A stretch of 49,832 nucleotides of DNA. Origin: a bacterium (lineage in GTDB: Bacteria; Bacillota_I; Bacilli_A; Izemoplasmatales; Hujiaoplasmataceae). A program made the position numbers and the translations under genes. Below are positions 14,072 through 49,229 of the stretch, piece by piece. The notes beneath the pieces are model-generated. The model was not told where the DNA came from. It ran no database searches and saw only the letters and a program-made list of their open reading frames with translations. The stretch lies in the NCBI GenBank assembly GCA_030684695.1, contig JAUXXX010000016.1, forward strand, positions 1-49,832, read 5' to 3'. Position 1 is the stretch's first letter. Each line of letters opens with the position of its first letter.

Positions 14072-15289
14072 TTAGTTAATGCCTTGCATAAACTTACCAA
14101 ACGTTACACCAAATTGATAACATTCTTCAAGTTGATTACTGGATGGATTAAACTTAATACGGAGTCCTTCGATGGTTTTCATGCGAAGTTGCTTCAGCCT
14201 GGCCATTACATGGACTACCCCTTCTCCGCTCCATCCATAAGATCCAAATGCTGTCGCGAACTTTAATCCATCAATCACTGGATTTAGTTTATAAAGAACT
14301 TCCCAAATGGGTTCTACCGCATCAGATAAGATGGTGGTTGTTCCCATTAAAAACGCATCTGCTTCTTTGATTCTATTGACGACTTCTATGATTGGAGTTG
14401 TAACCAAATCGTACGTTTCCACAACCACTTGTTGTGAAAAGGCGTCTTGAATTCCCCTAATAATCTCTGATGACATTTTCAAAGTGTATCCATATGCACT
14501 TGCATAAGGTATGATAACGATGGGGGGATTGTTACTTGCCTTTGAAGATGCCCACTGCGTATATAAATTTGTTACTTCATCATAGTTGGTTTTATCAACT
14601 ACGGGTCCATGACCAGTTGCGACATAATCAATGGCTAAATCTTTGATTCGATCTACCCCTTTTAATACAAACTTCTTAAAAGGAGACATGATACAATCAA
14701 AATAATATTTCAATGCTTCCCGATACTGACCGATGTTTGGAACATTTTTAGCTAAAACACCTTCAAAGGCGTAATGCGCTCCATAAAAATCACAGGTGAA
14801 CAAGATCTTTTCTTCTTCCATGTAAGTAAACATCGTGTCAGGCCAATGAAGATTGGGTAACATGAATGTACGTAAACTACGGTTACCTAAAGAAATAACC
14901 ATATCTTCTTTGGCAACAATGTGAGTAAACGAACGATTGATGATTTCTTTTAAGTTATTGATACCAGCATTGGTTGCGACGATTGTAATATTGGGATTGA
15001 TTGCTAGTAAGCGCTCAATTGAGCCTGCATGATCTGGTTCTGTATGATTCATGAATAAATAGTCAATAGTCGAGACGTCCACCAATGCACTAAGTTTTGC
15101 TACATAGTCGTCTTGAAAGTTAGCTTTCGTTGTATCGATTAACGCTGTTTTTTCACTGCCCTTGACCAAATATGCGTTGTAAGTTGTCCCATAGACCGTT
15201 TCCATGGTAATATCAAACACGCGCAAATCATAATCATTTACACCAATCCAGTGAACATCTTTGATAAATTCTAATGTATTTGTTTGCAT
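14072..15289 (-). CDS. fprA: Flavodiiron protein (FprA family A-type flavoprotein)
   Basis: Flavodiiron proteins reduce O2 to water and/or NO to N2O in anaerobes. The 405-residue protein has an N-terminal metallo-beta-lactamase-like diiron domain with HTEPDH (residues 82-87), a later LHWPDT histidine, the CDFYGAH aspartate and GHGPV. A C-terminal flavodoxin domain begins near IIPYASAYGYT. No rubredoxin or flavin-reductase extension is present, so it needs an external electron donor that is not encoded beside it. A promoter lies just upstream. Confidence 0.95.
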   Translation of the reverse strand: MQTNTLEFIKDVHWIGVNDYDLRVFDITMETVYGTTYNAYLVKGSEKTALIDTTKANFQDDYVAKLSALVDVSTIDYLFMNHTEPDHAGSIERLLAINPNITIVATNAGINNLKEIINRSFTHIVAKEDMVISLGNRSLRTFMLPNLHWPDTMFTYMEEEKILFTCDFYGAHYAFEGVLAKNVPNIGQYREALKYYFDCIMSPFKKFVLKGVDRIKDLAIDYVATGHGPVVDKTNYDEVTNLYTQWASSKASNNPPIVIIPYASAYGYTLKMSSEIIRGIQDAFSQQVVVETYDLVTTPIIEVVNRIKEADAFLMGTTTILSDAVEPIWEVLYKLNPVIDGLKFATAFGSYGWSGEGVVHVMARLKQLRMKTIEGLRIKFNPSSNQLEECYQFGVTFGKFMQGIN

Positions 15290-21595: not shown

Positions 21596-22678
21596 CTACG
21601 AGAATTTATCGTAAAATACATTTTGTTTTAAAATTTTGTGTTTATTCAATACCCGGATACATGCATCAATCATCCCAGGCGATCCGCAAAGATACGCTTC
21701 AGATTCGGTTAAATCACCCGTGAATCGATCCACAACATCCGTAATCAGTCCTACTTCACCCTGCCAATTGTCTTCTGGAAGTGGACTCGATAATGCCGGA
21801 ATGTATTCAAAGTTTGGAAACTCTTTGGACAACTCCAAAAATTCCTCTGTGTAATACAAATCTTTTAATGATTTGGCTCCAAAAAAGTACTTCACCTTTC
21901 TTGGCATTCCACGATCTTTTAAATACGCAAGAATCGAACGAATCGGTGCTTTTCCCGATCCCCCAGCAATACAAATCATATCTTTGTTGGAGTTTTCTTG
22001 CAAGTAGAAATCACCAAATGGTCCAGTAACAATAATCTTATCGCCCACTTCTAAAGCATTGTGTACAAACCCCGTGGCTTGACCTTTGGGAACCATTCTG
22101 ATGATCATTTCAATTTGATTGGTTTGAGATGGATTGGATGCAATCGAATAGGCCCGAATAATATCAATCCCAGGAACCTTAATTTGAGCATATTGACCTG
22201 GCTTAAATGACATTGTATTGGGTTTTTTTAGTTTAAACTGAACCAACTTAATATCATAGGTCAGATCTTCAATATTGACAACTTCTGTATGGTATTCTTT
22301 AGCATAAAGCATGGTTTCTGGTATTTCAATCGAAATGTTATCTTTGACTTTTACTTGGCATGACAAGCGAACCCCATCTGCTTTTTCCTTTTCGCTTAAG
22401 AAAGGATCTTCCATTGCTTTCCGTTCTCCGCCGCCTTCGGTTACTTTACACTTACAAAATCCACAAGTGGCTTTCCCACCACAAGCAGAAGGAATAAAGA
22501 TTTTTTGTTGAGCTAGGGTATTTAATAAAGTTTCTTCGCCAGTCACCGGAATTTTGGTATGTTTGTTAATCGTAATGATTTTTTCACCACCACCGCCAAG
22601 TAAATAACTGATTCCAATCAAGATGAGTGTAATAACAAGCATGACTCCGACGAGGATCAATGGTACGTATATGTTCAT
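21596..22678 (-). CDS. nqrF: Na+-NQR subunit F-like NADH dehydrogenase
   Basis: NqrF oxidises NADH with FAD and passes single electrons to a 2Fe-2S centre. The 360-residue protein has an N-terminal membrane helix (about 5-28). A plant-type ferredoxin domain follows with Cys66, Cys72, Cys75 and Cys107. A ferredoxin-NADP reductase module completes it: RAYSIASNP for FAD, GGSGKAPIRSIL for the nicotinamide side and LCGSPGM near the C-terminus. NqrF is usually about 405 residues, so this copy is compact. It is the last gene of an nqrBCDEF operon without nqrA. Confidence 0.92.
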   Translation of the reverse strand: MNIYVPLILVGVMLVITLILIGISYLLGGGGEKIITINKHTKIPVTGEETLLNTLAQQKIFIPSACGGKATCGFCKCKVTEGGGERKAMEDPFLSEKEKADGVRLSCQVKVKDNISIEIPETMLYAKEYHTEVVNIEDLTYDIKLVQFKLKKPNTMSFKPGQYAQIKVPGIDIIRAYSIASNPSQTNQIEMIIRMVPKGQATGFVHNALEVGDKIIVTGPFGDFYLQENSNKDMICIAGGSGKAPIRSILAYLKDRGMPRKVKYFFGAKSLKDLYYTEEFLELSKEFPNFEYIPALSSPLPEDNWQGEVGLITDVVDRFTGDLTESEAYLCGSPGMIDACIRVLNKHKILKQNVFYDKFS

Positions 22679-22687
22679 ATAATCCTC

Positions 22688-23269
22688 CTAAATATTCGCG
22701 ATGCCAGTGAATCCAATAAAGGCAAGTGCTAAAATTCCAAGGACAATAAAAACAATCCCTTTCCCAGCAAGCCCTTTTGGTAAATCACTATTTTTCGCCA
22801 TTTTTTCACGAATACCTGCAAGAAGAATAATGGCGATCATCCAACCAACTGCAGAACCAAAGGAAAACACAGCGGTTTCACCAAAGGTGTATTCGCGGTT
22901 CACAAAGAACAACGAAACAGCCAATACAATACAGTTCACAGTGATGAGTGGTAAGTAGATACCAAACGCATTATAAAGCTTCGGTAGATATTTTTCTAGT
23001 AATAATTCTAAGATTTGAACCGTTGCAGCGATGGTAATCATAAAGACCAACAATGATAAATGTTCTGTTTGTGTACTTTTCAACAATTGATAGATGGGAT
23101 AGTTGATCACTGCGGTTAGTGTTACAACCAAGACGACAGCGAGTCCCATTCCTTTTGCATTTTTCACATTGGTGGAAATTGCAATCAGTGGACACATACC
23201 TAAAATATAGGTAAGAGCTATGTTATGGTTGGTTAATGTTGCGAGAAGTAACTCGATTAATCGTTCCAT
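22688..23269 (-). CDS. nqrE: Na+-NQR subunit E-like membrane protein
   Basis: The 193-residue, six-helix protein matches NqrE better than RnfA. It has LGMC near residue 26, LPLITVNC with Cys113, VQILELLLEKYLPKLYNAFG and the C-terminal VGWMIAIILLAGIREKM. In the Nqr complex, NqrD and NqrE each supply two cysteines to an intramembrane iron centre; both positions (Cys26, Cys113) are kept. Its start lies 25 bases after nqrD. Confidence 0.92.
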   Translation of the reverse strand: MERLIELLLATLTNHNIALTYILGMCPLIAISTNVKNAKGMGLAVVLVVTLTAVINYPIYQLLKSTQTEHLSLLVFMITIAATVQILELLLEKYLPKLYNAFGIYLPLITVNCIVLAVSLFFVNREYTFGETAVFSFGSAVGWMIAIILLAGIREKMAKNSDLPKGLAGKGIVFIVLGILALAFIGFTGIANI

Positions 23270-23294
23270 TTAATGTCCCTCCATGATCCTATAT

Positions 23295-23918
23295 TTACGT
23301 CGTTTCATAATACTTGGTCAATTCACGAATGCCCCAAATGAAGAGCCCAAGCACGAAGAATCCACCTGGAGCTAAGGACATAACAACCCAATTTGTCCAA
23401 TTAGCACCCATAATCGAAACCCCAAGAATCGATCCATTTGCGAGTAACTCACGCACAATCGCGACAACCACTAACACGAAGGTATACCCCATACCGCTGG
23501 CAAAGCCATCAATTAAGGAATACTTTACTGGATTTTTGACTGCGAATGCCTCAGCTCGTCCCATCACGATACAGTTGGTAATAATCAAGCCAACATACGC
23601 TCCTAGTTGCTTTGCAATGGTTGGAAAATAAGCAGCTAAAAACATTTGAACGGAAATAACAAATGTAGAAATGACAACCATATACGTAACCATCCGGACT
23701 TTCGGTGGAATCAACTTACGTAGTAAAGAAATGGTTGCGGAACTTGCCATGACAACAAACGTCACTCCAAGTCCCATTGCAATCGCGTTTTCAACTCTAT
23801 TTGATACCGCAAGTGAAGAACAAATCCCTAGTACCGCAATCACGATTGGATTGTTTTTCACCAATCCATCTTTGGAGATGTTAAACCACTTGGTATATTT
23901 TACTCGAATTAGTTTCAT
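23295..23918 (-). CDS. nqrD: Na+-NQR subunit D-like membrane protein
   Basis: The 207-residue membrane protein has the NqrD/RnfE pattern with NNPIVIAVLGICSSLAV (Cys33) and LIITNCIVMGRAEAFA (Cys116). The G-I-C-S-x-L form is closer to NqrD than to RnfE (C-P-x-L). The cysteine pair would bind the shared intramembrane iron centre with NqrE. ATG 23918 has a strong GGGGGCC-type site; a longer in-frame start at 23945 would overlap nqrC by 16 bases and is less likely. Confidence 0.9.
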   Translation of the reverse strand: MKLIRVKYTKWFNISKDGLVKNNPIVIAVLGICSSLAVSNRVENAIAMGLGVTFVVMASSATISLLRKLIPPKVRMVTYMVVISTFVISVQMFLAAYFPTIAKQLGAYVGLIITNCIVMGRAEAFAVKNPVKYSLIDGFASGMGYTFVLVVVAIVRELLANGSILGVSIMGANWTNWVVMSLAPGGFFVLGLFIWGIRELTKYYETT

Positions 23919-23929
23919 ACTTTGGCCCC

Positions 23930-24562
23930 CTACCGTGCGTTCCACGCAGCGAGGTGAGCAGCGTAGTTCGTATTTAGGATAAATTCAAAAGCTTGTGAAG
24001 TTCTGGTAGCACCAACAATACTATCAACTTCATTGGGTAAATTCACTTGATTATCGTCTTTATTTATTTCGATGAATAAGGCGACATCTGTGTTTGGCGC
24101 TGGATATCGTTTTATTGAAGCTTGGTCAAATGTTTTTCCAACAAATTGTGCCAAATACGGAGCCTCTGCAACAACGCCTCCAAGTCCAGGTGTTTCTTCC
24201 TGTTGAAGGATAGTTATTGAGACAATCGTGACAAAATCGGACTCAAAGGTAATAATCCCAATGATGTCTCCCCACACTCCACCACCTATAAACCGAAAAC
24301 TAATACGATTTGTGTCTTTTCCAACATAGAACGTATAGCCATCTAAGACAACCGTTTCAATCTTCTCGTTAAAGAAGGTATTGATGTTCGCGGCTGTGAA
24401 CTGGTTTGCGTATCCATTCGCAATTAAGACTGTCGATTGATTGTCAAAATTTTTGTTGGCTTCGATACGATCTCTTGTAAGAGCATCCATCCCAACAAGA
24501 ATCCCTGAAGTAAACAATCCAAGCACAAGAACAAAGAGTATCATTTTTATGTTTTGATTCAT
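23930..24562 (-). CDS. nqrC: Na+-NQR subunit C / RnfG-like FMN-binding protein
   Basis: The 210-residue protein has an N-terminal signal anchor (about 7-26) and an external FMN-binding domain with EETPGLGG (about 122-129). The flavinylation motif is DSIVGATRTS, with FMN expected on Thr186. It carries V-G-A-T rather than the usual S-G-A-T. FMN would be attached by ApbE (2137-3345). The protein is shorter than Vibrio NqrC (about 257 residues) and nearer RnfG in length. It overlaps nqrB by four bases (ATGA), showing translational coupling. Confidence 0.9.
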   Translation of the reverse strand: MNQNIKMILFVLVLGLFTSGILVGMDALTRDRIEANKNFDNQSTVLIANGYANQFTAANINTFFNEKIETVVLDGYTFYVGKDTNRISFRFIGGGVWGDIIGIITFESDFVTIVSITILQQEETPGLGGVVAEAPYLAQFVGKTFDQASIKRYPAPNTDVALFIEINKDDNQVNLPNEVDSIVGATRTSQAFEFILNTNYAAHLAAWNAR

Positions 24563-25506
24563 ACGACTGCCTCCGTTTCCTCAACAGACAAACCTTTTTC
24601 TTTTCCAATGGTATCCAGAAGTGGTCCAATTGCATTCATAATAATGATGGAAAAAGTTACTCCTTCTGGGAAAGTAGCGAAGTTACGTATCACTACGGTA
24701 AAAAATCCGAGTCCTATTCCATAAAGAATCTTGGCCAAAGGTTTCATCGGTGCCGTGACCGGATCGGTTGCGACAAAGAATGCCCCAAACAATAAACCAC
24801 CTAGCAATAACGACATAATAGGATCTTTAAAACCAGTGAGCCCGAATAGTTGACCCAAGGCATTTAATCCAAATACGGTAGCTAAGTAGAAAAGTGGAAT
24901 TCTCCAGTCAGCCACTTTCAACACAAGTAATAAAATTCCTAATATCAAAATACCCAAACGGAATGTTTCTCCAATGGTTCCTGGCATCATCCCATTCAAC
25001 ATTTGCCATAGAGTGTATGGTATTTCTCCCCCACGATTAAAAACAATCAATGGTGTCGCTGCCGCTACGGCATCGATTCCTGGCGTGTACCATCCTAAAT
25101 TCGGATCAAACCACGAAACCGCTGTAAATGCTGGAAAGGAAATTAAGATAAATAACAATCCAACGATTGCTGGATTAAAGACGTTTTTTCCATATCCACC
25201 AAACACTGCTTTTCCAAAGAAAACCCCGAAAGCAGAACCAACTGCCACAATCCACAAAGGAATCGTTGGAGTCATCAATAGCGCAAACACGAGTGGTGAA
25301 ACATACCATGAAACATCAATACTGCGTTTTCTTGCTTTGGCAAACAACACTTCTACTGCAATCGCAGCACCGTAGGAGACGGCTGTGATTGCTAAGACAT
25401 AAAAGCCAAAAATCACCGTGGAAGCTATTAACAAAATCAATAGAGCTCCGGTGTAAATCAGCAAATTTCTATTTTGCTTGGGGGTAATTGCATTACCCTG
25501 ATTCAT
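24559..25506 (-). CDS. nqrB: Na+-NQR subunit B / RnfD-like membrane protein
   Basis: The 315-residue protein has about eight to ten membrane helices and the family blocks GVFFGKAVFGGYGKNVFNPA (about 94-113), LNGMMPGTIGE, AFFVATDPVTAP and the C-terminal RNFATFPEGV. The covalent-FMN region reads GIDAVAAATPL, with Thr151 the likely acceptor; the usual S-G-A-T is A-A-A-T here. Vibrio NqrB is about 415 residues, so the N-terminal extension that helps bind NqrA and quinone is missing, as in RnfD. It is the first gene of the operon, directly behind a promoter with a palindrome. Confidence 0.88.
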   Translation of the reverse strand: MNQGNAITPKQNRNLLIYTGALLILLIASTVIFGFYVLAITAVSYGAAIAVEVLFAKARKRSIDVSWYVSPLVFALLMTPTIPLWIVAVGSAFGVFFGKAVFGGYGKNVFNPAIVGLLFILISFPAFTAVSWFDPNLGWYTPGIDAVAAATPLIVFNRGGEIPYTLWQMLNGMMPGTIGETFRLGILILGILLLVLKVADWRIPLFYLATVFGLNALGQLFGLTGFKDPIMSLLLGGLLFGAFFVATDPVTAPMKPLAKILYGIGLGFFTVVIRNFATFPEGVTFSIIIMNAIGPLLDTIGKEKGLSVEETEAVV

Positions 25507-39878: not shown

Positions 39879-41126
39879 TTATTCGTAAGGATTAAAAATT
39901 GTCGTGACATCTTGAATCGATAACACAGTGGGGTCAGCTGTGGAATACCCAAGTTGCGAAAAGTTGTTATACCCCCAAGCTAAAATTCGTTGATGAGATG
40001 TTTTTATGACCGTATGTAATGTGCCAAGTTGAATGGAAACCACTTTTTCATTTCCCGTCAATTCAAGACGCGCGGTAATATTGGTTGGAAAAACAAGTTT
40101 TACGGTGGTGCCATTACCGAGTTGACCATTGCTATTGGTTCCCCATCCATATACTTTTCCACTTGAAGATATTGCCATGGAGGCAGCACCACCTGAAGTG
40201 ATATAGGAGATGGTCTCGTTTGATTGTAATTCAAAATAGGAAGTAATCTCAACTGGTTTTTTCCGGTTGACTTGAGTACCATCGCCCACGGAGTTACCCG
40301 ATGACAATACTCGTCCTTTTGATGTTAAAAAGGTAGTTGTATACAGCGCTGCACTAATGGACTGAATCGTTTCTTTATTCACTAAAAAGATCTGTGAGGT
40401 AATCTCTACAGGTGTGAGTCGATTGGTAGTGGTATCGTCTCCCAATTGACCATAAGAATTATTACCAAACGAGAAAATTCGACCTTTTGTAGTTAGCACA
40501 ATGCTATGACGCTCCGATGTTGCGACCATCTTGAACCCTTCTCCTGTTAGTAAAGAAAACGAGGTTGTGATATTTAGAGGGGTTTTAATATCGTTGGTCG
40601 TTCCGTTGCCTAACTGACCATAATTGTTGCGACCCCAAACAAACAACTTATTCTTGTTTGTGATTGCAAATAAATGGTTTTTCCCTGATATCAGCTGGAT
40701 GATTTTTTCATTGGATGGAAGTTCAAAAGAAGATGTAATATCGATGGGTGTCGTTTGGTTTGTACTACCCTCTCTTGCTAATTGTCCATATTCACTTCTA
40801 CCCACCATCAACACTCGACCATTGGAAGTTAGAAAAGCAGAATGACTAACCCCTGAGACGATTTGGATCACTCGTTCATTGTTAATGAGTGTAACATTAG
40901 CCGTCACATTTTGAAAAGCATTGACATTGGATGTGCTTTTCGTCGCTAATTGTCCCGCATTGTTTCGACCAACTACGTAGATACTTCCATGATTTGAAAG
41001 TGTGAATGTGGCGTATTCACCTACGGCGACTTGATCTACTTGTTCGGTCTTATTCAGTAAAAACGTTGCAATGATAGAAAGCATCACCACAACTACAGTA
41101 ATGAGTAAAATTCGTCTTGTATTCAT
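39879..41126 (-). CDS. Membrane-anchored RCC1-repeat protein
   Basis: The 415-residue protein has one N-terminal helix (about 4-26) and a mature part made of seven RCC1-type repeats of about 50 residues. Each has a G-x-N-x-x-G-Q-L-like turn: GRNNAGQL, GRSEYGQL, GRNNYGQL, GNNSYGQL, a degenerate GNSVGDG, GTNSNGQL and GYNNFSQL. Seven repeats agree with a seven-bladed propeller. Its partner is unknown; such bacterial proteins are often extracellular or surface-exposed. ATG 41126 has a GGAGGAT site. It is monocistronic. Confidence 0.87.
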   Translation of the reverse strand: MNTRRILLITVVVVMLSIIATFLLNKTEQVDQVAVGEYATFTLSNHGSIYVVGRNNAGQLATKSTSNVNAFQNVTANVTLINNERVIQIVSGVSHSAFLTSNGRVLMVGRSEYGQLAREGSTNQTTPIDITSSFELPSNEKIIQLISGKNHLFAITNKNKLFVWGRNNYGQLGNGTTNDIKTPLNITTSFSLLTGEGFKMVATSERHSIVLTTKGRIFSFGNNSYGQLGDDTTTNRLTPVEITSQIFLVNKETIQSISAALYTTTFLTSKGRVLSSGNSVGDGTQVNRKKPVEITSYFELQSNETISYITSGGAASMAISSSGKVYGWGTNSNGQLGNGTTVKLVFPTNITARLELTGNEKVVSIQLGTLHTVIKTSHQRILAWGYNNFSQLGYSTADPTVLSIQDVTTIFNPYE

Positions 41127-41276
41127 GCTATCCTCCAACAAAAATTAGATAAGTTCATTGTATCATAAACCAAGGAATCTTCAAGGACCATTCATCAAGC
41201 TAACTCCCATTTCCTATAAAAACATAAAAAAAGAGACGAAATCGTCTCTTAAAAGGATTAAATGATGTGCGAAATC

Positions 41277-42854
41277 TTAGTCATTGGTTAATCCAAAAAA
41301 CTTGGTATCTTCTTGTAACATATGTCCAACTAGAATCTTTCCTACAATTGTATTGAAAAGATGGATGGAATTAATCGAGCCTTCTTTGACTTTTGTCATG
41401 ATTTGCTCCATCTCGACAAGTAAATTCCTATGAATCGTACGATGTTCCATATATTCTGAATATCCAAGGGATTTAAGAATCAATTCCTCGTGGTCAAAAT
41501 GCGATTTCAACTCTAGGTAGATCTTTAAAATAATCTCTTCTAAGTATACTTTAGGGGTTTCTAATGGATTGATATCAAGTAGCATATTAGCATAATCCAC
41601 AAGTTTCATGTGTTCAACATCAATTTCGTGATTTCCAGAATTCCATTTTTCTTGCCATTCTAATCGATGATACACTCCAGCAGTTGCTAGACTTCTACTA
41701 TGAGCTTTTACTTGGTTTCTACCAGAATACTTTGCATGATACAAGGCAAAATCCACGTTTTGAAACCATACACGTTTTGATTCTCCCAGTTCGTAATCTG
41801 CCACACCACAACTTATGGTGATTTGCTCTTGGATAGGGAATACAGTTCGCATGACTTTAACACGAATCTGTTCCGCAAGCGAAATGGCTTCGGTTAAGTT
41901 TTGGTTTGCAACAATTAAAAACTCTTCTCCACCCCAACGATATACTTTTCCCATTGCGCCAATGGATGAAACTAAAATTTTAGATAAGTCCTTTAAGACG
42001 AGATCGCCTACTTGATGTCCATAACTGTCATTGATACTCTTGAAATAGTCGATGTCCACCAAAATTAAGGTCGTTGGAATGTGTTGTTCTTGAAGTTCTT
42101 TCAACACATCATCCAATTCTCGCTCTAGTGTATTTCGGTTGAATAGTCCAGTTAAGTAATCATATTTCGCAGATGCCTCAAGTAAATCATTTTTTAGTTT
42201 TAGTTCATTGGTGAGCAAGCTTTGATTTAAAATCAAAACAAGTGCTGCCCACAAAGAAAAGGAAACGATACTATACATGCTTGCGGCAACAAATGAAAGA
42301 CTATCTTGATGTACGATGACGGTTGGTGGTACTGTTATGAAAGTAAAAAGTGCTCTAAATATCGCTAATGTAGTGGTTAGTGAAACTGCACCAATAAACA
42401 GATTGCGTAGACCCCTAGGAACCATATCTTTATGAGTGAGTAAATAGCGTGCTACTTCAGTCATCATAAATGCAGTATATAGTGAAATCCCCGCTACTCG
42501 AAAAGAAAACGATGGAATAATCAATACGAAGATAATCGACGATAATGCAAAAAGAACATATGCAATGATATGCCTCTTATAGATCATCTTTTCTTGTCGA
42601 AATGCTTGCATTCCAGTTGCCATTAACATCACACCTAGTCCGGTGAAAAGGTTAAAAAACAACACGCCAACGACCAATCCAACAACAGTGTTTGACTGAA
42701 AAAAGGCAAGTATATAGGCAATTCCAGTGATGAAATACGCAAAAGAATAAATGGATAATACACGTTGATTTCGCTGTCTTCCAACCGCAAAAAAGACACC
42801 AGAGAATGTAAACAGAAGCAAGATAACAGCAATTAGTAATGTTTGACTATCCAT
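41277..42854 (-). CDS. Membrane GGDEF protein with C-terminal hemerythrin domain
   Basis: The 525-residue protein has about seven membrane helices (residues ~5-225), a GGDEF domain (about 240-395) and a C-terminal hemerythrin-like domain (about 405-525). The GGDEF active site reads RWGGEEF and is preceded by DYLTGLFNR and DIDYFKSINDSYGH, so it should make cyclic di-GMP. No RxxD inhibitory site is visible before GGEEF. The hemerythrin ligands are present in order: EIDVEH, HFDHEE, HRTIH and HMLQED. This suggests an oxygen-, NO- or iron-dependent switch on cyclase activity (inference). ATG 42854 with an AAAGGA site is preferred. Confidence 0.92.
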   Translation of the reverse strand: MDSQTLLIAVILLLFTFSGVFFAVGRQRNQRVLSIYSFAYFITGIAYILAFFQSNTVVGLVVGVLFFNLFTGLGVMLMATGMQAFRQEKMIYKRHIIAYVLFALSSIIFVLIIPSFSFRVAGISLYTAFMMTEVARYLLTHKDMVPRGLRNLFIGAVSLTTTLAIFRALFTFITVPPTVIVHQDSLSFVAASMYSIVSFSLWAALVLILNQSLLTNELKLKNDLLEASAKYDYLTGLFNRNTLERELDDVLKELQEQHIPTTLILVDIDYFKSINDSYGHQVGDLVLKDLSKILVSSIGAMGKVYRWGGEEFLIVANQNLTEAISLAEQIRVKVMRTVFPIQEQITISCGVADYELGESKRVWFQNVDFALYHAKYSGRNQVKAHSRSLATAGVYHRLEWQEKWNSGNHEIDVEHMKLVDYANMLLDINPLETPKVYLEEIILKIYLELKSHFDHEELILKSLGYSEYMEHRTIHRNLLVEMEQIMTKVKEGSINSIHLFNTIVGKILVGHMLQEDTKFFGLTND

Positions 42855-43050
42855 AGGTGTCCTTTCTACAACCATGCAACTTGTGAGTAACGAATGATTG
42901 TCAGATGTTGATTTTTTTATCGCTCTTTAGTATTTAACACATATTATATCATATGTTGCTTAAAATGCTTCTAAATCACGTAAGAATAATCATAAGAAAA
43001 GAGCCAAATTGACGGCTTTAGATGCAAATTTCTTCCAGACTTATCAAAAA

Positions 43051-43362
43051 CTATTCTAGTTCGATCCATTGATCTGACCAATCTGCAATAGATTTCATAA
43101 CTGGAGATAATGACTTCCCTTTGGGGGTTAGAGAGTACTCCACACGAAGTGGAACTTCAGGAAACACTTCACGGTGGATCAATCCAAGTTCTACCAATTC
43201 TTTTAATCGAACAGACAAAACACGACCGCTAATTTTGATTTCAGTTTCTAAAGTATGAAATCGTTTCGGCCCAGCTAGTAACTGATTAATAATCAATCCT
43301 ATCCAAGGTTTTCCAAGTATTTGAGTTGCTTTGTCAAATTTCGGACAAATAGTATGCTCCAT
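43051..43362 (-). CDS. HxlR family redox-sensing regulator (YodB-like)
   Basis: The 103-residue protein has the HxlR winged helix: KPWIGLIINQLLAGPKRFHTLE, ISGRVLSVRLKELVELGLI and VEYSLTPKGKSL. A single cysteine lies at position 6 in MEHTICPKF, matching the sensor Cys6 of Bacillus YodB/CatR, which respond to quinones, diamide and other electrophiles. ATG 43362 is chosen because it gives this exact position and has a GGGTGAT site. It is divergent from the FMN reductase-ohr operon, which it probably represses. Confidence 0.9.
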   Translation of the reverse strand: MEHTICPKFDKATQILGKPWIGLIINQLLAGPKRFHTLETEIKISGRVLSVRLKELVELGLIHREVFPEVPLRVEYSLTPKGKSLSPVMKSIADWSDQWIELE

Positions 43363-43411
43363 AGTATCACCCAAATATATTATACAATATTATTTTGTCT
43401 ATGCATATTAC

Positions 43412-43440
43412 TTTACATCATTAACTTACTAATGTATAAT
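43412..43440 (+). promoter_or_regulatory. Promoter of the FMN reductase-ohr operon
   Basis: TTTACA (43412-43417), 17 bases, then TATAAT (43435-43440). Confidence 0.7.
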
Positions 43441-43458
43441 TGCTTACAAATAGTAAGT
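43424..43458. promoter_or_regulatory. Candidate HxlR/YodB-type operator
   Basis: ACTTACTA (43424-43431) and TAGTAAGT (43451-43458) form an inverted repeat with a 19-base spacer that encloses the -10 box. The minus strand contains TACTATTTGTAAG, which resembles the YodB-box as I recall it. Confidence 0.6.
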
Positions 43459-43523
43459 ATATAAACATCATAAACTGACTTCATCTATGATAAATGAACT
43501 ACTTACATGAATCGGAGGATCAC

Positions 43524-44072
43524 ATGTCACAAAAATTAAACATTGGTATTATTTTAGGTTCTACGAGAGAAGGACGAGTAAGTCCATTTGTTGGAGAATG
43601 GTACAAAACAATTGCAAATAAGCGTCAAGACGCCAATTATGAGATCGTTGATATCAAAGAATATAAATTGCCATTTCTTGGAGAATCTACTGATAATACG
43701 AATATCGTTCGTTGGAATCAAAAGTTAGCATCACTAGATGGCTTTGTTTTCGTTGTTGCAGAATACAATCATTCGATTACTGGGGTGCTTAAAAACGCTC
43801 TTGACTTAGCCAAAGAGGCTTGGAATAACAAAGCCGCAGGAATCGTTAGTTATGGTTCTGCTGGAGGAGCACGTGCTGCAGAGCATTTACGTGGAATTTT
43901 AGGGGAACTCCAAATTGCAGATGTTCGAACTCATATTTTACTAACACTGTTTAACGATTTCGAAAACTTTTCAATCTTTAGGCCACTTCCTGTTCACGAA
44001 AAGAACATCAACTTGCAACTCGATCAATTAGTCAAATGGTCTACTGCTATGAAATCGGTACGTTTATCATGA
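43524..44072 (+). CDS. NADPH-dependent FMN reductase
   Basis: The 182-residue flavodoxin-fold protein has the FMN phosphate loop GSTREGRVSPFV (about 12-23), the VVAEYNHSITGVLKNALD block (about 77-94) and the SYGSAGGARAAEHLR block. These are typical of NADPH-dependent FMN reductases/azoreductase-like quinone reductases. It probably reduces quinones or other electrophiles with two electrons. ATG 43524 has a GGAGG site. It overlaps ohr by four bases, and the HxlR regulator is divergent. Confidence 0.9.
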   Translation: MSQKLNIGIILGSTREGRVSPFVGEWYKTIANKRQDANYEIVDIKEYKLPFLGESTDNTNIVRWNQKLASLDGFVFVVAEYNHSITGVLKNALDLAKEAWNNKAAGIVSYGSAGGARAAEHLRGILGELQIADVRTHILLTLFNDFENFSIFRPLPVHEKNINLQLDQLVKWSTAMKSVRLS

Positions 44073-44485
44073 GTAAAAATCTATTCTTAGAACGAAGTGC
44101 TACCACTTATGGTGGAAGAGACGGAGTCATTAAAAACACACAAAGCGGCCTACAAGTGGAGATGACAAAACCTCTTGAAATGGGTGGCTCCAATCCCACA
44201 GGAACGAACCCCGAAGAACTATTTTCCATGGGATATAGTGGTTGCTTTGCTAGTTCACTAGAATACTTGCTATCTGTAGACAAAGTATCCTATCAAGAGA
44301 TAGTAGTGAATGTAAACACACAATTGGTGTCAGACGAACAAGGTGGATTTAAGTTTGCTTTACAAGTCCATGCAAGAATCAAAGGCTTGACTTCAGAACA
44401 AGAAACTCAATACATTCAAAAAGCGTTCCAATTTTGTCCTTATTCCAAAGCCATTAAGGGAAATATAGACATTTCATTTATCTAA
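44069..44485 (+). CDS. ohr: Organic hydroperoxide resistance protein (Ohr/OsmC family)
   Basis: Ohr is a thiol peroxidase that reduces organic hydroperoxides. The 138-residue protein has the two catalytic cysteines in GYSGCF (Cys59) and FCPYSKAIKGN (Cys123). It also has PLEMGGSNPTGTNPEELF, which fits Ohr better than OsmC. The start overlaps the FMN reductase stop by four bases (ATGA), so the two are coupled. In this organism it appears to be under an HxlR regulator rather than the usual MarR-type OhrR. Confidence 0.92.
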   Translation: MSKNLFLERSATTYGGRDGVIKNTQSGLQVEMTKPLEMGGSNPTGTNPEELFSMGYSGCFASSLEYLLSVDKVSYQEIVVNVNTQLVSDEQGGFKFALQVHARIKGLTSEQETQYIQKAFQFCPYSKAIKGNIDISFI

Positions 44486-47111: not shown

Positions 47112-47411
47112 TTACTCTTCAATTACCCCACGGTAAACGATCATACCACCCAACACATTTGATACTTGGTAGCCATTGTTACCTAAGTATTGTGCTACTG
47201 CTTGAGAGCGTGCTCCTGTTAAACAAACGATATAATAATGGATAGTTTTATCTAATTTGCTTACAAACTTCATAAAAGATGAAATTGGTGTATTGATGGC
47301 TCCTGGAATGTGCCCTTCCTCAAATTCATCGATTTCTCTGACATCGAGGATATGTACTAGTTCACTTTTCATTGCTTGTTCAAGTTCTGTCATTTTTATA
47401 TTTTTATACAT
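47112..47411 (-). CDS. Single-domain rhodanese (sulfurtransferase)
   Basis: The 99-residue protein is one rhodanese domain: ILDVREIDEFEEGHIPGAINTP (about 21-42), the active-site loop C-L-T-G-A-R (Cys63) and a C-terminal VLGGMIVYRG. The cysteine would carry a persulfide. Its start overlaps the upstream CoADR-rhodanese stop by eight bases, so the two are co-translated. Both carry rhodanese domains, a repeated arrangement typical of persulfide-detoxifying clusters. Confidence 0.92.
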   Translation of the reverse strand: MYKNIKMTELEQAMKSELVHILDVREIDEFEEGHIPGAINTPISSFMKFVSKLDKTIHYYIVCLTGARSQAVAQYLGNNGYQVSNVLGGMIVYRGVIEE

Positions 47412-49062
47412 GGATATGCTCCTTTAGCATGTTAGATAGTATGGTAAAAGCTCCATCAAGTAGGACAACATTGTATCCTTTTGATCGTAAGAATAGTTCT
47501 GCATTGTAACTTTTCGCTCCTGTGTCGCAGTACACAACAAGTAGTTTATCTTTTGGAAGTTGATGATATGTGTGGGACAATTGATCAATGTCTAAATTTA
47601 TCGAATTTCTAATCGATCCAAATGCATTTGATTCAAAAGAACTTCGGACATCTAGGAATAAGGTAGTATCTGAGTGTTGTTCAATGAATTCTTTGACCTC
47701 ATACCACTGGATTGTTTTTGAAAGACCAACAATAACATTTTGAGCAACATATCCAGCTAAATTAACGATATCTTTTGCACTTGAATAAGGTGGTGCGTAG
47801 GATAATTCTAGTTCTTGTAAGTCGGATACTTTGATGTGTCCCTTGATGGCTGTTGCTAAAATATCGATTCGCTTATCAATGCCCTTTTGACCCACTGCTT
47901 GTGCTCCAAGAATTTCTTCTGTTAAGGGGTTAAATAAAACCTTCAGGTAAATCGGTGTTGCGTGAGGATAATAACTAGCGTGATCATTTGCCTGAAGATG
48001 GATCGTTTTATAGGTTGAATTTTTTAGTTGCTTTTCATTCATACCAGTGGATGCCAAACTTAAGTCAAACACTTTGACAATGGAAGTACCTATGGACCCT
48101 TTATTTGATACCAATTGCCCACTTAAGATGTCTGCTAATTGTCGACCTTGACGGTTCGCAGGGGAAGCCAAAGGGATTAATGTATCCATATGAGAAATCT
48201 GATGTTTGATAACAATTGCGTCTCCCACGGCATAAATATGATCTGCCGATGTTTTATACTGATGATCCACAACAATTCCACCGCGTACGCCTGTTGTGAT
48301 TTTTGCCATTTGAGCAAGGATGGAATCTGGGCTTACTCCAACCGCTGAAATCACAAAATCAGTTTCAAATGATTCATTCGATCGTAATCGCGCTACTCTT
48401 CCTTCAAAGGAGGTAATTTCGTTATCTACGTAAACATCGATTTCATTTCGGAGTAGTTCATTCCGTATAAAGAACCCCATTTCTTCATCCACAACCGGTA
48501 GAACTTCTTTTGACTTTTCAACGATACTAACCTTTAATCCACGTTTCTTAAGGTTCTCTGCCACTTCTAAACCAATGAACCCAGCTCCAATAATCGTGGC
48601 ATGCTTAGGATTGCTTGTCTTAATAAAGGACATAATTTGATCCAAATCAGGAATATTACGTAATACAAACATTGGCAACTCTAACCCAGGAACTTTCAAT
48701 ATGATGGGCTTAGCTCCTGTAGATAAGACAAGTTCATCGTAGCTTTCTATATGAGTTTTGCTTTCGAATCGATATTCGACTTGTTTATTGAGGGGATCAA
48801 TGCGGAGGACTTCCGTGTTGGAGCGGATGTCCAAACGAAAGCGATCTTTCAATAATTGTTCCTTGACTACTAAAAGAGCACTTCTAGTACGTATTTCTCC
48901 AGACATGTAATAAGGTAACCCACAATTTGCAAAGGACACGTACGGTCCCTTTTCAAAAACAATGATTTGAGCATCTTGATTAAGACGACGGTATCGTGTT
49001 GCGAAACTCATACCACCAGCAACTCCGCCGATGACTACTATTTTCTTATTCTTGTTTTCCAT
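47404..49062 (-). CDS. CoA-disulfide reductase with C-terminal rhodanese domain
   Basis: The 552-residue protein has the FAD-binding GGVAGGMSFATRYRR near the start, the redox cysteine in SFANCGLPYY (about Cys47) and a second dinucleotide site ATIIGAGFIGLEVAENLKKRG. AVGDA closes the FAD domain. The last ~100 residues form a rhodanese domain with C-D-T-G-A-K-S active-site loop. This is the CoADR-Rhd layout, which reduces CoA disulfides/persulfides and polysulfide with NAD(P)H. ATG 49062 with GGTGAT is chosen. A CstR-like palindrome lies in its promoter. Confidence 0.92.
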   Translation of the reverse strand: MENKNKKIVVIGGVAGGMSFATRYRRLNQDAQIIVFEKGPYVSFANCGLPYYMSGEIRTRSALLVVKEQLLKDRFRLDIRSNTEVLRIDPLNKQVEYRFESKTHIESYDELVLSTGAKPIILKVPGLELPMFVLRNIPDLDQIMSFIKTSNPKHATIIGAGFIGLEVAENLKKRGLKVSIVEKSKEVLPVVDEEMGFFIRNELLRNEIDVYVDNEITSFEGRVARLRSNESFETDFVISAVGVSPDSILAQMAKITTGVRGGIVVDHQYKTSADHIYAVGDAIVIKHQISHMDTLIPLASPANRQGRQLADILSGQLVSNKGSIGTSIVKVFDLSLASTGMNEKQLKNSTYKTIHLQANDHASYYPHATPIYLKVLFNPLTEEILGAQAVGQKGIDKRIDILATAIKGHIKVSDLQELELSYAPPYSSAKDIVNLAGYVAQNVIVGLSKTIQWYEVKEFIEQHSDTTLFLDVRSSFESNAFGSIRNSINLDIDQLSHTYHQLPKDKLLVVYCDTGAKSYNAELFLRSKGYNVVLLDGAFTILSNMLKEHIHV

Positions 49063-49077
49063 AAATTTATCACCGTC

Positions 49078-49083
49078 ATTATA
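49078..49083 (-). promoter_or_regulatory. -10 box of the CoADR-rhodanese operon
   Basis: The minus strand reads TATAAT, directly abutting the 16-base palindrome at 49084. A TTGCAA at 49104-49109 is a possible -35 with an over-long spacer of 20 bases. Confidence 0.6.
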
Positions 49084-49099
49084 ATACCCCACGGGGTAT
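49084..49099. promoter_or_regulatory. CstR/CsoR-like operator
   Basis: ATACCCC-AC-GGGGTAT is a perfect inverted repeat with 7-base arms immediately upstream of the -10 box. It matches the C/G-run palindromes bound by CsoR-family repressors, of which CstR controls persulfide genes. Confidence 0.75.
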
Positions 49100-49229
49100 A
49101 TAATTGCAAACAAGTTGCTCATATTTCTCACGCTGTTTTATATCCGTTTTCTGGACACATGTAGACGAATAAAATGATGGCTTGTAAATGAAAGTATCGG
49201 TATCTTGAAATTATGAATTTGTCACCTAT

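Follow-up and report, generated by a model that had tools for sequence, protein, structure and literature searches.

A predicted seven-helix diguanylate cyclase with a C-terminal hemerythrin domain in an Izemoplasmatales genome

The stretch of DNA analysed here (the window, 49,832 nucleotides) carries on its minus strand, at positions 41277-42854, a gene for a protein of 525 amino acids, which the open reading frame together with Pfam and NCBIfam matches predicts to be a 7TM-GGDEF-hemerythrin diguanylate cyclase. Its ATG lies at 42854 and its stop codon ends at 41277, exactly the limits given in a preliminary description of the locus. A second in-frame ATG is present at 42875; the start at 42854 is favoured because the motif AAAGGA stands just 5' of it. 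From the N-terminus, the chain consists of seven transmembrane helices, a signalling helix, a GGDEF domain and a C-terminal hemerythrin (Hr) domain. A full-length AF2 model, built from 11 sequences, had a mean pLDDT of 84.1 and a pTM of 0.50, so that the relative placing of the domains in it is unreliable, and the linker between the GGDEF and Hr domains was poorly ordered (residues 388-395, pLDDT <50). The E-values of the domain matches, and motifs conserved at 21-31% overall identity, put the architecture far beyond chance.

The GGDEF domain occupies residues 229-381 (positions 41712-42170, minus strand), where PF00990 matches with an E-value of 3.8e-39 (134.5 bits against a cut-off of 23.8) and TIGR00254 scores 140.8 bits against 37.4. 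In nine proteins of the same family, 21-31% identical to the window protein, the GGEEF motif (residues 308-312) is invariant, as are D267, D269, F271, K272, N275, D276 and D284, which we take, from what is commonly held about their single catalytic roles, to be the conserved GGDEF active-site residues. Judged by these residues, the protein should synthesise c-di-GMP. Its inhibitory RxxD site is replaced by GAMG. Across the 16 GGDEF-Hr proteins collected in this study, RxxD is present in 12 and GG[DE]EF is retained in all.

The Hr domain, residues 399-520 (positions 41295-41660, minus strand), matches TIGR02481, the O2-binding type, with an E-value of 1e-20 (74.0 bits, the cut-off being 51.75); PF01814 is barely above its threshold (25.7 against 25.3 bits), and the bacteriohemerythrin subfamily NF033749 scores below its cut-off (61.7 against 84 bits). 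Five histidines, one glutamate and one aspartate (H415, H452, E456, H471, H475, H511 and D516) align with the ligands of the Hr domain of DcrH. All seven are invariant in the nine family proteins and complete in 15 of the 16 GGDEF-Hr proteins as well as in the single GGDEF-EAL-Hr protein. Fold searches with the whole model returned mostly GGDEF chains, and the Hr fold rests on sequence and on the four helices predicted for this domain in the full AF2 model. The domain would, from its ligand set, bind two irons. It is the single Hr match of this type in the window's genome, which is 87% complete. A complete GGEEF site and a C-terminal Hr domain with every ligand, both claimed beforehand, were thus confirmed by curated models and by the alignment of the seven diiron ligands.

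Residues 1-225 (positions 42180-42854, minus strand) form the membrane domain, as delimited by AF2 models and loop charges. The seven N-terminal helices of the preliminary description were recovered both in the full-length model (residues 3-28, 31-51, 57-84, 93-112, 116-140, 147-174 and 186-230) and in a model of the domain alone (mean pLDDT 84.5, pTM 0.81); the last of them continues unbroken to about residue 230 as a signalling helix, after which the GGDEF fold begins. Lysine and arginine occur in the loops around residues 29-30, 85-94 and 136-150, with none in the remaining loops, and this confinement of positive charges to inner loops points to an N-out/C-in topology, by which the cyclase and Hr domains are predicted to lie in the cytoplasm. 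The earlier notion of membrane-sited sensing therefore stands for the anchor, which is the seven-helix domain, but not for the sensor, since the loop charges place Hr in the cytoplasm, tethered to the membrane rather than in it. When six domains were scanned against Pfam and NCBIfam, no named family was above cut-off for the seven-helix domain, the best sub-threshold family being QueT (19.2 against 33.7 bits). Structure comparison retrieved generic seven-helix bundles only (Foldseek best E 7.9e-3; VIA-align Z at most 16.7), and a rhodopsin is unlikely because the last helix contains no lysine for retinal. N68, R119, R167 and W202 are invariant residues inside the predicted helices. A second, membrane input through this domain is possible.

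The cyclase gene probably stands alone, as terminator-like hairpins flank it on both sides: one, a consensus match, follows the stop codon (41231-41250, minus strand) and a weak one lies between the gene and the upstream HxlR gene. A promoter-like site 5' of the gene (42948-42975, minus strand) is likewise a consensus match, at 9 of 12 positions, and sites of this kind turn up about as often in shuffled sequences. A riboswitch ahead of the gene was rejected, because Rfam finds four tRNAs only in the window. Directly upstream (43051-44485), the gene of a HxlR regulator is divergent from those of an FMN reductase and an OsmC protein, which together are likely to be a redox-stress cluster of their own; among curated models, those of redox regulators come closest to the HxlR protein, which stays under their cut-offs (70.6 against 175 bits). 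Just downstream (39879-41141) lies a gene for an RCC1-type repeat protein with an N-terminal hydrophobic segment. A conserved operon partner was also rejected, since the adjacent genes were not found beside the homologue in nine relatives; the matches listed there went to the protein itself, to other GGDEF proteins, to ABC ATPases, to a helicase and to the frame at 47404-49137. Elsewhere, the window holds an Rnf/Na+-NQR-like cluster (21596-25506), with RnfD above its cut-off and an RnfA/NqrE-like protein below both cut-offs, and a gene (14072-15289) for a flavodiiron protein that combines metallo-beta-lactamase and flavodoxin domains and is akin to anaerobic NO/O2 reductases, in which Pfam and NCBIfam gave no match to a rubredoxin domain.

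The kinship of this flavodiiron protein with NO reductases raises the question of whether the Hr domain senses nitric oxide, or another ligand, instead of O2 or redox state, and diiron sites can indeed bind NO. However, the flavodiiron gene is 26 kb away from the cyclase gene and not linked to it. Moreover, the activity of the Vibrio enzyme Bhr-DGC tracks redox state and not ligand binding, as azide indicates (PMC9388753, in its accessible part), and we hold sensing of NO or another ligand to be quite improbable.

Whole-protein searches at E <=1e-20 were run over 61 genomes, among them 33 others from the window's family and 27 from the rest of the order. GGDEF-Hr proteins occurred in eight of the 33, three with the seven-helix domain (full-length matches L091-L093) and five with other N-terminal regions (L094-L098, matching over GGDEF and Hr only); in the 27 genomes of other families, no match over Hr was detected at this threshold. 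PAS domains are clear in front of L094 and L096, and the PAS match of L098 is weak and under the cut-off; the domain scan covered these three, and L095 and L097 align with L094 throughout. Hr of this type is rare in the class: profile A3 matched (E <=1e-6) seven of 395 sampled genomes, five from the same family and two from another, f21, and in both f21 genomes the seven-helix architecture is repeated without large gaps. In the latter two, the cyclase gene adjoins serS (L248 and L249) and at L248 it lies between serS and gyrA, gene names that we assigned by eye, a conserved place that differs from the location in the window's family. One f21 genome (G237, contig 20) also encodes at L254 (1399-6114) a protein of 1571 aa with the order PAS-GGDEF-EAL-Hr-GAF-PAS-GGDEF, in which Hr is preceded by a c-di-GMP phosphodiesterase module and followed by a cyclase module.

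Such a patchy distribution within the family, together with the lost RxxD, could be the mark of a degenerate cyclase or c-di-GMP receptor, or of a protein on its way to being lost. Yet active cyclases without RxxD exist, the catalytic positions are invariant despite the low overall identity of the family proteins, and the same architecture recurs in a second family of the class. Degeneration or loss has, in our judgement, only a slim chance of being correct.

Beyond the class, tblastn with GGDEF-Hr against a plasmid collection, some records of which are chromosome-sized, gave two among the best 5000 records that cover at least 80% of the query, from Acetoanaerobium noterae (L141) and Aeromonas caviae (L142). 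In the phylum of Clostridium tunisiense, 142 of 398 genomes had an Hr match at 1e-14; of the 12 listed frames longer than 260 aa, 11 were considered (all but one of 291 aa in G794), and two of these 11 listed matches, both from G761, are GGDEF-Hr proteins with a receiver domain. Matches at 1e-20 were found in 53 of 398 genomes in the phylum of Marinobacter, where one of 30 loci among the matches listed (L215) is a GGDEF-Hr protein, with PAS in front. The Vibrio-type order, with Hr first, was present in three of 45 named genomes (L156, L166 and L214). The idea that the order GGDEF then Hr is exclusive to the window protein had to be rejected, as it also occurs in Acetoanaerobium, Aeromonas, G761 and G1169.

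For a tree of Hr domains, the sequences were trimmed to begin at W400, and 117 of 122 rows were kept, with five long rows (L172 twice, L167, L170 and L151) dropped. Within the limits of 127 columns, a profile built from this protein type and loci picked by score, the tree placed 16 GGDEF-Hr proteins and the GGDEF-EAL-Hr protein on one side against 100 others with a support of 100/99.6, and a smaller set separated 16 from 70 (100/98.8). Four Hr-first rows fall outside the group of 17 (L244 being assigned to them through a GGDEF match that is partial and distant, and VC1216 of Vibrio itself being outside the sample). In the trimmed tree, the window's own Hr row is on a long branch of 1.54 changes per column; in a first, untrimmed tree, the very long single-domain row L172 stood inside the GGDEF-Hr group. 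GGDEF trees were made after thinning the non-Hr rows from L025-L088 by two thirds and removing a few partial or long rows; the GGDEF domains of the GGDEF-Hr proteins did not come out as one group, needing seven changes, but the test did not reject a single clade (p-AU 0.152). Read most simply, GGDEF-Hr is an old unit in which the front has been exchanged; alternatively, an Hr lineage was possibly added to several cyclases. Since the Hr domains that follow GGDEF or EAL group together and those of Hr-first cyclases stay outside, a second class of Hr cyclase is suggested.

These comparisons also bear on which domain senses. The seven-helix domain may be the true sensor, of a lipid, an ion or a small molecule, with Hr as an accessory that buffers oxygen or iron or serves as a structural tail and does not gate the enzyme: its four invariant helix residues and its position, the usual one for a controlling domain, would suit such a role, and single-domain Hr proteins with storage or scavenging functions are common (PMC4919030 and PMC3770913, in the parts accessible). 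Nevertheless, Hr is kept with GGDEF while the front varies between 7TM, PAS and receiver domains, and a separate Hr lineage is more in keeping with a part in the enzyme than with a stray buffer, which makes a purely accessory Hr unlikely to us.

The genome of the anaerobic host (1.93 Mb, G000) contains 24 GGDEF and five EAL matches, and a domain search detected no PilZ in it, so its c-di-GMP network is large for the genome size, with few EAL proteins for so many GGDEF proteins. Three c-di-GMP-I riboswitches score above the gathering threshold (L138, L139 and L140, on contigs 41, 30 and 46), and each precedes, in the same orientation, genes whose products begin with a hydrophobic segment. These segments end in motifs such as FAWF, and surface or fibre proteins under c-di-GMP control are possible. 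We take the N-termini to resemble SipW/TasA-type signals; NCBIfam and Pfam gave no family match for the exported proteins, including the SipW/TasA type. MurC-F were not detected in the genome, where the sole Mur-ligase-type match is FolC, and the accessible text of PMC10868615 describes Izemoplasmatales, the order to which the host probably belongs, as peptidoglycan-free. The suspicion that the organism may lack a cell wall is thus well founded, and the host is very probably without peptidoglycan. In the literature searched, c-di-GMP was not found together with Izemoplasma, and our results point to a c-di-GMP circuit in Izemoplasmatales.

We consider it rather probable that the protein acts as a diguanylate cyclase, anchored in the membrane and controlled by two inputs, in which Hr passes redox state to the cyclase. 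The seven-helix domain would anchor the protein, probably dimerise it and join the cyclase through the long helix, and the cytoplasmic Hr would bind two irons, which in an anoxic cell should be in the diferrous state. O2 would oxidise Hr, and the short flexible linker before it would pass the change to the cyclase. In DcrH, the N-terminal loop of Hr has an ordered structure in the oxidised protein and loses it in the deoxy form (PMC9388753, accessible part), and because this loop corresponds to the poorly ordered linker to GGDEF here, we propose that redox state gates the cyclase through it. In Vibrio Bhr-DGC, the diferrous form has ten times the activity of the diferric form, and the azide-bound diferric form is inactive too (same source); by analogy, the reduced state would be active here, c-di-GMP being made under anoxia and falling upon oxygen exposure; oxygen or redox control as such is presumed from the same analogy, and the sign of the effect is a guess. 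Through the type I riboswitches ahead of exported-protein genes, c-di-GMP would then tie surface make-up to oxygen, with catalysis and this downstream effect both remaining putative. In distant bacteria, too, this Hr lineage is found together with GGDEF or EAL, which counts for this mechanism, as do the curated-model matches and retained ligands, the predicted cytoplasmic position, the redox-type neighbour genes and the riboswitches and other c-di-GMP genes of the genome. Against it count the place of Hr after GGDEF, without the usual helix by which front sensors act, the long branch of the window's Hr and its rarity in the family, and the lack of conservation of the redox neighbour genes in nine relatives.

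On a broader and more tentative level, the Hr-last cyclases might constitute a second, separately evolved class of iron-based oxygen- or redox-controlled c-di-GMP enzymes, spread over Izemoplasmatales, another family of the class, Clostridia and Pseudomonadota, in which a single conserved Hr lineage accompanies GGDEF, and in one case EAL, behind front sensors that are freely swapped, and whose 7TM version in wall-less Izemoplasmatales might link oxygen exposure to riboswitch-controlled surface proteins. Hr-GGDEF fusions as such are already known from survey counts, as far as the accessible parts of two surveys go. In one, 53 of 84 chimeras are C-terminal, 16 with GGDEF plus seven more GGDEF combinations, one including EAL (PMC2556348); the other counts 22 Hr-GGDEF proteins and few O2-binding Hr in Tenericutes and Bacilli (PMC4919030). 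Both give the C-terminal position as the commoner one for Hr among chimeric bacterial hemerythrins. In the passages of openly available papers that were searched, neither a separate lineage of Hr-last cyclases nor this seven-helix version was found described. PG_0686 of Porphyromonas, with a non-canonical Hr and without a GGDEF motif, is not of this kind (PMC10101095, accessible part).

One of the nearest known counterparts is Vibrio cholerae Bhr-DGC (VC1216), which also combines a diiron Hr and GGDEF in one chain and in which c-di-GMP synthesis is redox-controlled (PMC9388753, accessible text). In VC1216, Hr stands in front and there is no such membrane domain, whereas the window protein has Hr at the C-terminus, by Pfam and NCBIfam, and a 7TM domain; the opposite order noted in the preliminary description therefore holds. 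Hr domains of the VC1216-type order likewise lie outside the Hr group of the window protein, VC1216 itself not being in the tree. Bhr-HD-GYP of Ferrovum is another Hr-controlled c-di-GMP enzyme (PMC9388753 and PMC8846402, accessible parts), but it degrades c-di-GMP and its Hr is N-terminal. Among phosphodiesterases of the EAL type, the accessible text of the 2022 review regards an Hr-controlled one as not yet discovered (PMC9388753), and the protein at L254 may be such an enzyme. DcrH of Desulfovibrio vulgaris is similarly a membrane protein with a C-terminal cytoplasmic Hr behind its output domain (same review), and its Hr sequence matches that of the window protein with the ligands aligned; it differs in that its output is a chemotaxis (MCP) domain and that a periplasmic domain with HAMP serves as its input. 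Acetoanaerobium noterae L141 and Aeromonas caviae L142 share both the order GGDEF then Hr and the Hr group of the window protein, with a receiver domain, or an NMT1-like domain plus PAS, in place of its 7TM front. The characterised cases of c-di-GMP control by Hr have the sensor ahead of the enzyme, and the coupling of Hr to output is given as unknown in the accessible parts of PMC9388753 and PMC8846402; a lineage in which the sensor follows the enzyme and the front domains are exchangeable offers natural material for locating the coupling surface.
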